From Planctomycetota bacterium (lineage in GTDB: Bacteria > Planctomycetota > UBA1135 > GCA-002686595), in assembly GCA_016872755.1 (NCBI GenBank), contig VGZE01000011.1:1-45465 (forward strand): a stretch of 45,465 nucleotides of DNA, written 5' to 3'. The notes beneath the pieces were generated by a model. That model saw only the letters and a program-made list of their open reading frames with translations, made no database searches and had not been told where the DNA came from. The position numbers and the translations under genes were made by a program. Positions 7,632 to 19,869 of the stretch are shown here, piece after piece. How positions within the stretch are numbered: the stretch's first letter is position 1; each line of letters starts with the position of its first letter.

Positions 7632-7757
7632 GTTGGCCCTCGAACGGCGTACGAGTGCCGCGGGTCCCACCGGGCCCGCCGGCGCGCGCGCACCCTTCGC
7701 ACAACTCGGACGGATCCGCACGCCTGCACGCAGGCGCGCGCGGCTTCCGATCGCGGC

Positions 7758-8021
7758 ATGCAACCCCAGGAGCCCGAGCCTCGCAGAGGTCCGGCCGCTC
7801 GACGCCAGGCGCTGGCCGTCGAGTGGTCGCGCTTCGCCGGCCTCGGCATCCAGTTCGCCGCGACGATCGGGCTCTTCACCTGGGCCGGCTGGTGGGCGGA
7901 TTCGCGCCTGTCCAGCTCACCCTGGTGCCTGCTGCTCGGCGTCGCGCTCGGATTCACCGGGGCCCTGATCGCGCTCGTGAAGGCCGTGCCGCGCGCGTCG
8001 CGGCGGAGCCCGCCGCGCTGA
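7758..8021 (+). CDS. AtpZ/AtpI-like small membrane protein of the ATP synthase operon
   Basis: An 87-aa protein with two hydrophobic helices (FAGLGIQFAATIGLFTWAGW and WCLLLGVALGFTGALIALV) joined by a short loop containing DSRLSSS. This matches the AtpZ/ATPase_gene1 family of small proteins encoded first in many atp operons and implicated in Mg2+/Ca2+ transport or c-ring assembly. It starts at ATG 7758 and is followed after 26 nt by a second small membrane gene. Family membership rests on size, topology and position. Confidence 0.7.
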   Translation: MQPQEPEPRRGPAARRQALAVEWSRFAGLGIQFAATIGLFTWAGWWADSRLSSSPWCLLLGVALGFTGALIALVKAVPRASRRSPPR

Positions 8022-8047
8022 AACCCGATCGATCACGTCCCCACGCC

Positions 8048-8443
8048 ATGACTCGCCTGACGCTGGCCCTGCTCGCCTGCACCGCTGCCGCGGTCGGGCT
8101 GTACGTGTGGCGTCCGGGCCCGATCGGCCTGGGCTCCGTGATGGGGATCTGCATGGGGGCGGGCCTCGGGGCGCTGGGCGTGCTGTGGGTCGCGCGCGAG
8201 GCGCGCCGCGGCGGACTGCACGCGTTCCGCGCGCAGACGCTGCTGTTCCTGCTCAAGCTCGGCGTGCTGACGGCCGGCGCGCTGGCGCTGCGCTTCCTGC
8301 CGCAGCTCGAGCAGAGCGCCGACTGGCGCGCCTGGCTGCTCGCCTTCGCCGCGGCGAGCGTGCTGGTGCTGTTCGTCGGTCTGTGGGGCCTCTTCCCGAT
8401 CCCCCGGCGGCCGCTGCTGTCCAACGTAGACCGCCTCGCATGA
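8048..8443 (+). CDS. Small membrane protein, possible AtpI (ATP synthase protein I)
   Basis: A 131-aa, very hydrophobic protein with about four helices (LTLALLACTAAAVGLYVW; VMGICMGAGLGALGVLWVA; LFLLKLGVLTAGALALRFL; LLAFAAASVLVLFVGLWGLF) and a basic loop between helices 2 and 3 (REARRGGLHAFR). Size, topology and position directly before atpB fit AtpI, which assists c-ring assembly in some bacteria, but I see no diagnostic motif. Its stop overlaps the atpB start (ATGA at 8440-8443), so translation is coupled. Confidence 0.6.
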   Translation: MTRLTLALLACTAAAVGLYVWRPGPIGLGSVMGICMGAGLGALGVLWVAREARRGGLHAFRAQTLLFLLKLGVLTAGALALRFLPQLEQSADWRAWLLAFAAASVLVLFVGLWGLFPIPRRPLLSNVDRLA

Positions 8444-11082: not shown

Positions 11083-12675
11083 ATGGATCTCCGCCCCGCA
11101 GAAGTCACCTCGATCCTCTCCAAGGAGATCGAGAACTACAAAGGCGACCTCGCCGTTCAGAACGTCGGCACCGTGCTCAGCGTCGGTGACGGCGTCGCGC
11201 GCGTCTGGGGTCTCAACGACTGCATGATGAACGAGCTGCTCGAGTTCTCGGGCGGCGTTCGCGGCGTCGCGCTGAACCTCGAGGAGGACAACGTCGGCTG
11301 CGTGCTCCTCGGCGATGCGACCAAGGTCAAGGAGGGCGACACCGTGCGCACCTCGGGGCGCATCATCTCGGTGCCGACCGGTCCGCAACTGCTCGGGCGC
11401 GTCGTCAATGCGCTCGGCGACCCGGTCGACGGTCGCGGCCCGCTCGGCGTGACCGAGAAGGACTACCTGCCGATCGAGCAGCCCGCTCCTTCGGTGGTCG
11501 AGCGCGAGCCGGTCAAGGAGCCGCTGCAGACCGGCATCAAGGCGATCGACGCGATGATCCCGATCGGCCGCGGCCAGCGCGAGCTCGTGATCGGCGACCG
11601 CCAGACCGGCAAGACCGCGCTGTTGATCGACACGATCATCAGCCAGAAGAACTCCGGCGGCGGCGACCCCAACAACCCCGATCAGGTGCTGTGCGTCTAC
11701 GTCGCGATGGGGCAGAAGCAGTCGACGGTCGTCGACGTCGTGCGCCGCCTCGAGCAGTCGGGCGCGATGCCCTTCACGATCGTGGTGTCCGCCTCGGCGA
11801 ACGACGAGGCCTCGATGCAGTACCTGGCCGCCTACGCCGGCTGCTCGATGGCCGAGCGCTTCCGCGACGAGGGCCGCCACGTCGTGATCATGTACGACGA
11901 CCTGTACAAGCAGGCGCTCGCCTACCGGCAGGTCATGCTGCTCCTGCGCCGCCCGCCGGGGCGCGAGGCCTTCCCCGGCGACGTGTTCAACCTGCACAGC
12001 CGTTTGCTCGAGCGCGCGGCCAAGATCTCGCGCGACGCGCCGAAGATCAATCCGCGCTTCAAGAAGGGCGGCGGCTCGATCACCGCGCTGCCGGTCGTCG
12101 AGACGCAGGAGGGCGACGTCTCGGCCTACATCCCGACCAACGTGATCTCGATCACCGACGGCCAGATCTTCCTCGAGTCGAACCTGTTCAACTCAGGCGT
12201 CAAGCCGGCCGTGAACGCGGGCATCTCGGTCTCGCGCGTCGGCGGCTCGGCCCAGATCAAGGCGATGAAGGACAAGGCCGTGGCCGGCGGTCTGCGCCTG
12301 GGCCTGGCCAGCTACCGCGCGCTGGCGGCCTTCGCGCAGTTCGGCTCGGACCTCGACAAGGCGACGCAGCAGGAGCTGACGCGCGGCGAGCGCCTGGTCG
12401 AGCTGCTCAAGCAGGGCCAGTACGCGCCGCTGCCGGTCGAGCAGCAGATCATGGCGATCTACTGCGGCACCTCGGGCGGCCTCGACGACTTCCCGGCGCG
12501 CCGCGTGCAGGAATTCGAGAAGGCCTTCCTGCGCTTCATGAACGACCACCACCCGGAGGTCGGCCAGGAGATCCGCACGACCAAGGAGCTGTCCGCCAAG
12601 TCGCGCTCGACGCTCGAGGCGGCCTGCAAGACGGTCAAGCAGCAACTCAACCCGGGCGCCTCGGGGAAGGGCTGA
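11083..12675 (+). CDS. atpA: F0F1 ATP synthase subunit alpha
   Basis: The non-catalytic nucleotide-binding subunit of the F1 head. The 530-aa product has the N-terminal beta barrel ([20 protein letters not shown]), Walker A GDRQTGKT at 171-178, [20 protein letters not shown], the Walker B region [17 protein letters not shown], and [17 protein letters not shown] with the conserved arginine finger region. The C-terminal helical domain ends with [13 protein letters not shown]. Length compares with 513 in E. coli. It is preceded by a 51-bp gap and followed 10 nt later by atpG. Confidence 0.98.
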
Positions 12676-17474: not shown

Positions 17475-17981
17475 GTGACTCAGACCTACCGCGTCAACCG
17501 TCAGATCCGAGTGCCCGAAGTCCGCCTGATCGATCAGGACGGCAACCAGGTCGGGGTGGTCACGATCGAGGACGCGCGCCGCCGCGCGGACGACGCGAAT
17601 CTGGATCTGGTCGAGGTGTCGCCGAACGTCGCGCCGCCGGTCTGCCGGATCCTGGATTTCGGCAAGTTCAAGTACGAGCAGCGCAAGAAGGAGAAGGGCG
17701 GGGCGGCCAAGAAGCACGCCAGCCAAGTCAAGGAGCTGCGCGTGCGGCCGGCGATCGGGGATCACGATCTGGAGTACCGGATCCAGCAGGGAAGGGGGTT
17801 CCTGGAGGAGGGGTACAAGGTGCAGGTCGTGTGCGTGTTCAAGGGGCGGCAGATGGCGCACCCCCAGCTTGGACGGCAGGTGATCATGGAGGTGGTGGAG
17901 AAGCTTGCGGATATTTGCAAGGTGGATGGGAGTCCGAAGTTGATGGGGAATCGGATGACGACGTTGTTGGTGAGGAAGTAG
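17475..17981 (+). CDS. infC: Translation initiation factor IF-3
   Basis: IF-3 binds the 30S subunit, keeps 50S away and checks the start codon-fMet-tRNA match. The 168-aa product has the N-terminal domain (YRVNRQIRVPEVRLIDQDGN), the basic linker (FGKFKYEQRKKEKGG), and the C-terminal domain (VKELRVRPAIGDHDLEYRIQ through MTTLLVRK). I chose GTG 17475, which starts five codons before the conserved N-terminal motif. The last third uses codons unlike its neighbours, rich in GGG, GGA and TTG, with a strong G excess on the plus strand. Normally rpmI follows directly; here 2 kb of other sequence intervenes. Confidence 0.96.
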   Translation: MTQTYRVNRQIRVPEVRLIDQDGNQVGVVTIEDARRRADDANLDLVEVSPNVAPPVCRILDFGKFKYEQRKKEKGGAAKKHASQVKELRVRPAIGDHDLEYRIQQGRGFLEEGYKVQVVCVFKGRQMAHPQLGRQVIMEVVEKLADICKVDGSPKLMGNRMTTLLVRK

Positions 17982-17998
17982 AGGGGGAACGTGGGGGA

Positions 17999-18091
17999 GT
18001 CGCGCGCTGCGCGCGCGACTTGCGTGCGCGAGGACGCGCACGCGACTCCGCATGCGCTCGGGCGCGCAGACGCGCCCTCGCGTCTGCGGAG
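17999..18091 (+). repeat. Three-hairpin repeat element, copy A (3' UTR of infC)
   Basis: Three consecutive hairpins begin 18 nt after the infC stop. Hairpin I: AGTCGCGCGC/GCGCGCGACT (17999-18021, loop TGC). Hairpin II: GCGTGCGCG/CGCGCACGC (18023-18044, loop AGGA). Hairpin III: outer CTCCGCA (18047-18053)/TGCGGAG (18085-18091), inner GGCGCG/CGCGCC with loop CAGA (18061-18076). Copy B on the other strand has the same order, the same TGC and CAGA loops and a 30-nt core around hairpin II that differs at one base, while the stems of I and III differ by paired changes. Confidence 0.85.
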
Positions 18092-18248
18092 TTTAAGTAA
18101 GAGGGATTCGAGGAGGGGGAGATCGTGGGGGCGGCGTGCTTTCACACTTTTTCTGGCACGCCCTCTGACACACCCGAGCGGACCGCCCTCCCGTTTCTCT
18201 CCTCTCTTCTCTCCTCTCTTCTCTCCGCCATCGAGTCCAAGTCATGAA

Positions 18249-18345
18249 CTTCGCATTCGCGCGGGTCGCGTCTGCGCGACCCGAGCGAATGCGAAGTCGC
18301 GTGCGCGTCTTCGCGCACGCAAGTGCGCGGGCGCAGCCCGCGCAC
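18249..18345 (-). repeat. Three-hairpin repeat element, copy B (3' UTR of the ASST-family gene)
   Basis: Read on the minus strand it starts 6 nt after the stop of the upstream gene. Hairpin I is GTGCGCGGGC/GCCCGCGCAC (18323-18345, loop TGC). Hairpin II is GCGTGCGCG/CGCGCACGC (18299-18320, loop AAGA). Hairpin III has a perfect 12-bp outer stem CTTCGCATTCGC/GCGAATGCGAAG (18249-18260, 18285-18296) and an 8-bp inner stem GGGTCGCG/CGCGACCC with loop CAGA. Compared with copy A, several stem positions change on both sides so that pairing is kept. Confidence 0.85.
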
Positions 18346-18351
18346 CCTCCA

Positions 18352-19869
18352 CTACCTCTTCAACTTCGCCAACCCCGAATACTCCACCCCATACCGCTCC
18401 GCCCTGAACAACGCATGCGGCGGCGCCTTCCCTCCCTGCTCCGTCGGCTTCTCCTCGCCGCCCAGCGTATTGCGCCAGTCCCACACGACTTCCTTCTCCG
18501 GCGTCACCTCGAAAACCCGTCCCGCCGCGCCCGAGCAGATCAGCGTGTTCCCGTTCGCCAAACGCTGCGCCCCCGAGATGAACGGCGAGAAGAACAGCGG
18601 CGCATCCTTGTACGCCCAGACCGGTTCTCTCGGCCCGAACGCCGCCCCAGCCGCGAGCTCGAAGCCCTTCCCGCTCGCGTACGGCAGCTCGAGCTCGAGC
18701 ACCTGCGAGAAATCCCCCGGCCGGTGCATCCCGTTGTCGAAGACCAGCAACCTCGGCGCGCCCGCGTCCGCATTCTTCAACCACGTCGGATTGTGCTGGT
18801 AGTGCAGCCTCTGATCCGCCTCCGTCCCGCGCCCGTAGTTCCGCGGATTGCCCCAGCGGAACAGGATGTCGCCGCCCTTGCCGTGGCGCCCTCCGGAGGA
18901 GGTGGCCGCCTGCGCGGTCGTCGTCGAGTGATCGATCACGAGCAACTCGCCGAGCTCGGGTGACGAGATCACGATCACGTCCAACCCGGCGTGGTGCTTG
19001 ACCGAGTTCGTGTGCATCCAGTCGCCCTTGTACTTCGACTTCGGCTTGTCCGGCCCCTTCGCGGGCGGCGGCGCGCCGCCGCCGGCGTAGCCGAGCGCGG
19101 CCATCTTCTTCTCCTCCTCCTCGCGCTTCTTGCGCTCCGCGTCCGACTCCTCGCGCGGCTCGAAGCGGTGATCGGCGTTGATGTCGAGCCGACCGGGATG
19201 GTCGGCCTTGGCGACGAAGTTCGGCTTCTTCGGGTTGCGGTCCTGCATCAGGTGATCCCAGGCGCGCCACTGCCAGACCACCTTGCCGCCGCCGCGCGGA
19301 TTGCGCTCGAGTTCGAGGATCGTGTCCGGCCACAGGCCCTCCTCGACGACCGCGTGGAGATCGCGGCCGGCGGCGAGCGCCTCGTCGGGCGAGTGGTACT
19401 CCCACGCGATCAGCAGCAGGTTGCCGTTGGGGAGCACGTCGAAGTCGTGGTGCAGCGTCAGCTGGTCGGTGGCCTGCACGTGCTCCCACACGACACTCGA
19501 ATCCCATGCGAGTTCCTGGATGCGTCCAGCGATCCCGCCGCCGTGGAAGCGCGGGTTGTCGGGCTCCTGGCACTGGCGCAGCAGGTTGCCGTTCGGGAGC
19601 AGCACGCAGGCGCCGCCCGGCACGTACTGCGTCTTCCAGGTGTGAACCGTGTTGCCGTCGAGGTCGACGAGGTGCGCGTTCTTCGAGTTCAACGGGTTGA
19701 CGAGCAGGTAGCCGGGCGTCGCGCCGGGGGTGCGCAGGCGCAGTCCGCGTGGCTCGACGGCCTCGAGGCCGCCCTCGAACGGCGAAGGCCGGGACTGGGG
19801 AGCCTCGGCACCCGGGGCCTGGATCGCGGCAAGCAGGAGCAGCGCGGAGAGGGGCAGCATGTCGGGCAT
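18352..19869 (-). CDS. Arylsulfotransferase (ASST)-family secreted protein
   Basis: A 505-aa exported protein with a signal peptide (MLPLSALLLLAAIQAPGAEA). The rest reads as a beta-propeller of the ASST type: repeated blades with NGN turns (VLLPNGNLLRQ, DVLPNGNLLLIAWE, RLANGNTLICSG) and motifs such as HLVDLDGNTVHTWKT, HHDFDVLPNGN, GKVVWQWRAWDHL, WMHTNSV and GRVFEVTPEKEVVWDWRN. ASSTs move sulfate between phenolic compounds, but whether this one is catalytic is not clear. A charged, Gly/Pro-rich insert (residues about 237-283, with ERKKREEEEKKM) interrupts the propeller. ATG 19869 is chosen because it precedes the signal peptide; 19860 also works. The gene sits inverted inside the infC-rpmI block. 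Confidence 0.75.
   Translation of the reverse strand: MPDMLPLSALLLLAAIQAPGAEAPQSRPSPFEGGLEAVEPRGLRLRTPGATPGYLLVNPLNSKNAHLVDLDGNTVHTWKTQYVPGGACVLLPNGNLLRQCQEPDNPRFHGGGIAGRIQELAWDSSVVWEHVQATDQLTLHHDFDVLPNGNLLLIAWEYHSPDEALAAGRDLHAVVEEGLWPDTILELERNPRGGGKVVWQWRAWDHLMQDRNPKKPNFVAKADHPGRLDINADHRFEPREESDAERKKREEEEKKMAALGYAGGGAPPPAKGPDKPKSKYKGDWMHTNSVKHHAGLDVIVISSPELGELLVIDHSTTTAQAATSSGGRHGKGGDILFRWGNPRNYGRGTEADQRLHYQHNPTWLKNADAGAPRLLVFDNGMHRPGDFSQVLELELPYASGKGFELAAGAAFGPREPVWAYKDAPLFFSPFISGAQRLANGNTLICSGAAGRVFEVTPEKEVVWDWRNTLGGEEKPTEQGGKAPPHALFRAERYGVEYSGLAKLKR

Follow-up and report, generated by a model that had tools for sequence, protein, structure and literature searches.

Among described systems of extragenic palindromic repeats, the BIMEs of enterobacteria consist of alternating inverted palindromic units joined by mosaic spacers and lie between or after genes. 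The element described here is likewise extragenic and built of alternating inverted palindromic units; unlike a BIME, it has three hairpins and about 100 nt per arm, carries no REP consensus or GTAG tag, and has an oriented skew around most of its copies. REP dimers have also been described (PMC3733652), and the frequent G.T pairing in REP stems was taken there as support for an RNA function. With the GTAG/CGTC REPs and REPINs (PMC3733652, PMC3116915) the element shares facing palindrome dimers, a position mostly between convergent or unidirectional ORFs and variable spacers, whereas it has no tag at the hairpin foot and no flanking RAYT that we could find, and G.T pairs are nearly absent from it. 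Finally, hairpins have been proposed to arise and persist through template switching (PMC8794818, in the part drawn on here), and the perfect stems of the element resemble those hairpins in changing by apparent double substitutions without intermediates. That part of PMC8794818 deals with RNA genes and makes no link to extragenic repeats or to local skew. A literature search on palindromic repeats at convergent genes of Planctomycetes and on local skew at palindromes returned nothing directly comparable.

A three-hairpin repeat at convergent gene ends

The window, by which we mean the whole 45,465-nt stretch of DNA that was analyzed, is contig C11 of a fragmentary 3.98-Mb genome in 389 contigs (G000). 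Sequence inspection and folding bore out the claim of an earlier note that two inverted copies lie in the sense direction after the stop codons of two convergent genes (Table 1), with copy A starting about 15 nt past the stop codon of infC and copy B 5-7 nt past that of an arylsulfotransferase-like gene. Each copy consists of three tightly packed GC-rich hairpins followed by a tail. The hairpin order and loops are those noted earlier (I, TGC; II, AGGA/AAGA on a 9-bp stem; III, CAGA), and the hairpin II core does differ between copies A and B at a single base (AGGA/AAGA). The CAGA hairpin of hairpin III was also recovered, but its extent had to be revised, as an outer stem, ACTYCGCA/TGCGRAGT, encloses it. 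In addition, a tail of ~25 nt, which reads GACTTGGACTCGATGG in copy B and goes beyond the earlier description, is part of the repeat, so that the unit is a ~100-nt three-hairpin head with a repeat-rich tail. Chance palindromes were ruled out by shuffled folds and by the many matches in the same genome; the folding energy was -77 kcal/mol (z = -4.1) for copy A and -89 kcal/mol (z = -8.0) for copy B, and none of 200 shuffles matched the native fold energy.

Table 1. Positions in the window of the two copies, their spacer, their skew fields and the genes upstream of them
Feature	Coordinates	Strand	Basis
infC (translation initiation factor IF-3), upstream of copy A	17475..17981	+	Pfam IF3_N, IF3_C
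GC-skew field of copy A, G on + strand; +0.50, +0.32, +0.13 per 150-nt step away	17546..17995	+	
Copy A hairpin I, GAGTCGCGCGC / TGC / GCGCGCGACTT	17997..18021	+	fold, alignment
Copy A hairpin II, 9 bp, loop AGGA	18022..18043	+	fold, alignment
Copy A hairpin III, outer stem ACTCCGCA/TGCGGAGT, loop CAGA	18045..18092	+	fold, alignment
Copy A tail, purine-rich, matches 3' part of model R1	18093..18118	+	model search
Facing-pair spacer, first half purine-rich, second half C/T-rich	18119..18222	.	composition
Copy B tail, TTCATGACTTGGACTCGATGGCGG	18223..18247	-	DNA and model searches
Copy B hairpin III, loop CAGA	18248..18297	-	fold, alignment
Copy B hairpin II, 9 bp, loop AAGA	18299..18320	-	fold, alignment
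Copy B hairpin I, GTGCGCGGGC / TGC / GCCCGCGCAC	18323..18345	-	fold, alignment
GC-skew field of copy B, G on - strand; +0.49, +0.20, +0.18 per 150-nt step away	18348..18797	-	
Arylsulfotransferase-like gene, upstream of copy B	18352..19869	-	Pfam PF05935

A DNA search of the same genome yielded 48 matches to the repeat, of which 19 span nearly its whole length (E 1e-47 to 1e-21). Together, DNA and covariance-model searches of the genome and its relatives gave 51 copies in two genomes, refuting the possibility that only the two copies in the window exist: 23 are in G000, where the copy at the start of C21 may be one and the same as that at the end of C208, and 28 are in Planctomycetota bacterium GW928_bin.9 (G001), the sole congener searched, where one is cut by a contig end; 50 arms could be tested. 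All family statistics come from these two genomes, both fragmentary, and as arms and pairs share ancestry the counts are not independent events. No other carrier was found among 121 relatives and 154 genomes of the order (overlapping sets), a degenerate core pattern matched GW928_bin.9 alone among ~85,000 species genomes, and the same pattern had no match in 2.9 million viral contigs; as far as these data show, the family is restricted to the genus among the genomes searched. Weak matches in G050, G060, G019, G029 and G091 are apparent chance fits, and those in G083, of the same order, belong to an unrelated tandem repeat. The G083 locus (L048:1062-1620) holds tandem ~220-bp repeats with GTAG-type palindromes, GTAGGGCGCGGGCATCGCCCGCG, which are likely ordinary REP-like elements.

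Adjacent copies alternate in orientation, forming 19 facing pairs within 700 nt with spacers of 6-380 nt between model ends, and G000 has two recently amplified arm types, with arrays of alternating arms in the family at C66 and C9. Degenerate repeats of ~17-35 nt occur in tails and spacers. There was no preference for heterodimers within pairs, identity being 0.73 within pairs versus 0.75 to other arms. The usual site is the gap after convergent stop codons, the exceptions being C66, with arrays in reversed order, and C83, where a pair lies between divergent genes, and three single elements (L080:3830, L084:3974 and L086:1836) each follow a stop codon in sense. With a cut-off of 60 nt, 29 of the 50 arms start in sense 5-55 nt past a stop codon, at a median distance of 19 nt; for points placed at random in the intergenic space concerned, 12.5% would be expected. 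The count is approximate, as genes were called by a custom codon-bias script. It bears out a strong link of the copies to gene ends, which the earlier note had left to be checked.

Several other repeats were seen in these genomes. A lone hairpin III-like sequence, GCGCGGGTCGCG CAGA CGCGACCCGCGC, lies without hairpins I and II after an adenosylhomocysteinase-like gene in C66 (L031:11404-11443). The same contig has degenerate ~17-19-nt minisatellites at L031:7500-7700 (GATCGAACGCGCTTTCA) and 11780-11890 (CCGCCATCGAGTTGGGA), the second of which resembles the tail of the element. Other large near-perfect palindromes, unrelated to the element, lie in gene-end gaps at L111:3296-3434 and L086:1950-2040 (CGAATCCGGCGAGTTGGCAGGAAATGAGCC; GGTGCCTGGCTCATTTTTGTCGG).

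Covarying stems and a possible role at RNA 3' ends

The covariation of the stems reported from the two copies is real across the family. Among 62 model-aligned matches, 11 of which mostly read hairpin III on the reverse strand, 26 of 39 pairs showed double-sided changes, compared with 5-7 when partners were slid, and 96% of cells were paired, figures that come from model-made alignments, which lean toward the model's own structure. An unfitted alignment of 18 copies gave nine covarying pairs versus 0-2, and in hairpin II 99% of cells are paired across copies. The changes are swaps from one Watson-Crick pair to another: G.U pairs account for 12 of the ~1,841 paired cells in the 50-copy set, and about ten of these 12 come from one column of one arm type. 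The three loci common to both species (infC, C99/C374 and C59/C377) differ by double changes, for example ACTCC...GGAGC versus ACTCT...AGAGT. As some hairpin variants recur in different arms, part of the covariation may represent whole-module exchange; copy A, for one, has a hairpin III identical in sequence to the one in the congener arm that follows the arylsulfotransferase ortholog.

The element has also been gained or lost between the two species. At four loci with orthologous genes on both sides (C730/C10, C97/C20, C762/C58 and C74/C107), one species has the element and the other lacks it, with partial cases at C9/C669, C208-C21/C613 and C444/C218. In the species without it, the stop codons at C97/C20 directly adjoin each other. 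A MITE or insertion-sequence derivative would have terminal inverted repeats with a target-site duplication; at the empty sites, the flanks between genes have diverged too far for insertion boundaries or duplications to be defined.

If the family were an RNA 3'-end element, with a selected fold whose hairpins in the sense transcript block 3'-to-5' exonucleases or mark the processed ends of convergent mRNAs, the strong covariation, the sense position of 29 of 50 arms and of the three single elements behind stop codons, and the asymmetrically conserved, mostly NRGA loops of hairpins II and III, a pattern implying that recognition is strand-specific, would all be expected. Nevertheless, G.U pairs are near absent although RNA tolerates them, there is no U-tract, the reversed arrays at C66 and the divergent-gene pair at C83 do not fit, orthologous genes manage without the element, and the skew in antisense-transcribed genes described below would be left unexplained. 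We regard an RNA 3'-end element as a rather unlikely account of the family, while an additional RNA role after stop codons is plausible and may explain the persistence of copies there. The earlier note had taken the covariation to suggest selection on RNA structure. The covariation holds and the step to RNA is only partly supported, since with near-absent G.U, Watson-Crick swaps, gain and loss of loci, arrays in the 'wrong' orientation and an oriented skew independent of transcription, covariation here is no proof of RNA selection. An intrinsic terminator was not found either, as the copy alignment has no T-run after hairpin III, where TTCATGACTTGG or a similar sequence stands. In addition, no Rfam covariance model matched the window at its gathering score, consistent with the earlier remark that no element with this layout is known to have been described.

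A strand-oriented GC skew around most copies

Around most elements, G is enriched and C depleted on the sense strand over ~450 nt. The mean raw GC skew on each side, in 150-nt steps from the element, is +0.28, +0.16, +0.10 and +0.02, reaching about zero beyond ~450 nt; little or no skew was seen at the C66 array (7715-8380), the C377 pair and the downstream side of C762. The two most extreme of the 151 skew bins in the window, +0.41 and -0.30, flank the element pair, and the final 50 codons have a GC3 skew of +0.71 in infC and +0.73 in the arylsulfotransferase-like gene. |GC skew| exceeds 0.3 in 14% of 300-nt intervals near elements versus 0.14% far away, and both far intervals fall within a single locus, about 1 kb away from elements.

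The skew reaches the third codon positions of neighboring genes. GC3 skew is +0.36 in genes before a sense element versus 0.00 in element-free convergent genes (p = 7e-6), and the mean of 0.00 in 40 element-free gene ends rejects the skew as a general trait of convergent gene ends. In genes before a sense element, G3 and C3 go gradually from 0.67 and 0.21 in the last ten codons to 0.50 and 0.42 at 100-150 codons, while other genes keep a G3 of ~0.45 and a C3 of ~0.47 and depart from these values slightly, in their last ten codons only. Comparison of filled with empty orthologs showed G3 raised and C3 lowered in 10 of 10 genes, the oriented skew being absent from the empty orthologs. Synonymous differences near the element comprised 63 C-to-G versus 14 G-to-C between filled and empty genes, and as these substitutions are not polarised, the skew could predate insertion. 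The excess of C-to-G over C-to-T changes is not what plain cytosine deamination would give.

At the single elements L080:3830+ and L084:3974-, the sense strand is G-rich both upstream and downstream, even in genes transcribed in the opposite direction, so that near the element the coding strands of their convergent neighbors are rich in C (GC3 skew -0.64 and -0.86). Genes transcribed away from the elements at L089 and C66:12075 likewise take on the sign set by the element. Because the sign holds in genes transcribed against or away from the element, the field follows the element and not the gene, and the neighboring gene's own transcription was rejected as its driver. A double-strand break with 5' resection was also rejected, as it predicts a sign flip across single elements, and two single elements have none. 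Stronger DNA folding of the sense strand, considered as a cause, was not seen (25 of 50 copies). At a divergent promoter region in G001 contig C18 (L080:4950-5400), a strong skew of -0.4, opposite in sign and centred there, accompanies CTCGCAACGCGCAC-type degenerate repeats with no three-hairpin element, perhaps a decayed relative.

The composition of the spacers raises the further alternative of a putative Rho valve, in which C-poor sense RNA would be spared, C-rich and G-poor antisense RNA would be bound by Rho, and each convergent transcript would be ended in the zone of the other gene, the skew being selected. All 17 of 17 pairs switch at mid-spacer from a purine- and G-rich first half to a C/T-rich second half, in which C exceeds G, against flat composition in six element-free convergent gaps read as controls, and extension of the skew into genes would also be in keeping with such a valve. 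However, it seems too much to ask that selection act on synonymous sites as far as 450 nt inside coding sequence, the C-rich RNA falls at the 5' part of the gene for L089 and the C66 element at 12075-12197, and the skew is absent from most convergent genes read, making a Rho valve quite improbable.

A DNA-level reading of the family

The earlier note had also raised a REP-like mobile repeat. This fits better than RNA selection, yet the tag, size and RAYT association of known REPs were not found. In its classical form, with REPs or REPINs moved in trans by a RAYT (Y1 transposase) and the skew as a side effect, this explanation would draw on the facing extragenic dimers, which lie behind genes just as REP dimers do (PMC3733652), on the filled and empty loci, and on Y1_Tnp matches in both G000 (three) and G001 (eight). 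The repeat is indeed extragenic and multi-copy, with 51 copies, 19 facing pairs among them and dimers often between convergent ORFs. On the other side, nearly all copies have three adjacent hairpins over ~95 nt, in arms of ~100 nt, in place of the single palindrome of a 20-40 bp REP. The all-copy alignment has no invariant GTAG or CGTC tag, the 5' foot being GGAG/CGAG/GGG and the linkers ACTT/GACT. The RAYT-like Y1 transposase genes, of ~300 aa and with weak Pfam matches (C42:22402, C42:495 and C47:16634 in G000; eight in G001), had no convincing element match around the 9 of 11 Y1_Tnp matches read (best E 0.006), in incomplete genomes where an unassembled RAYT is possible. Since neither a GTAG/CGTC tag nor a flanking RAYT was found, the family was not assigned to a known REP family, and we consider the classical RAYT explanation unlikely, while mobilisation by a RAYT is compatible with a DNA-level explanation as a means of spread.

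The reading we prefer, tentatively and with confidence just short of even, is that of a genus-specific extragenic palindromic repeat family with BIME/REPIN-like architecture that most likely acts at the DNA level. The oriented excess of G over C around most copies points to a DNA-level process and not an RNA signal alone, and the skew field suggests that one strand is repeatedly exposed or repaired. The hairpin cluster would leave the sense strand repeatedly single-stranded or resynthesised for ~450 nt on either side, possibly through stalled forks, gaps or nicking. Template switching within the stems, with which the near-absent G.U and perfect stems fit, would preserve their strict Watson-Crick pairing, a bias of mutation or repair on the exposed strand would deplete C and enrich G, and slippage may yield the 17-35-nt tail repeats; the elements themselves may be mobile. 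Set against the DNA-level reading, folding energies give no reason for the exposure of one strand, the fit to stop codons is equally expected of an RNA 3'-end role, and the element could be tied to no nuclease, transposase or target-site duplication. A stronger form, which we think possible but doubtful, is that the element is a strand-specific mutagenic, or single-strand-exposing, DNA element that orients a mutation field rewriting synonymous sites ~450 nt to both sides regardless of transcription, while templated repair keeps its stems perfect. If this is true, a non-coding repeat would set the local strand asymmetry of a chromosome.

RNA structure is by convention proved by covariation, and this family pairs very strong covariation with signs of a DNA-level process, offering a natural test case for template-switch maintenance versus RNA selection. 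An element that sets the sign of GC skew over ~1 kb, inside genes and regardless of their direction, makes the cause of strand asymmetry testable, with some twenty replicate sites in each genome and the empty orthologs as controls.
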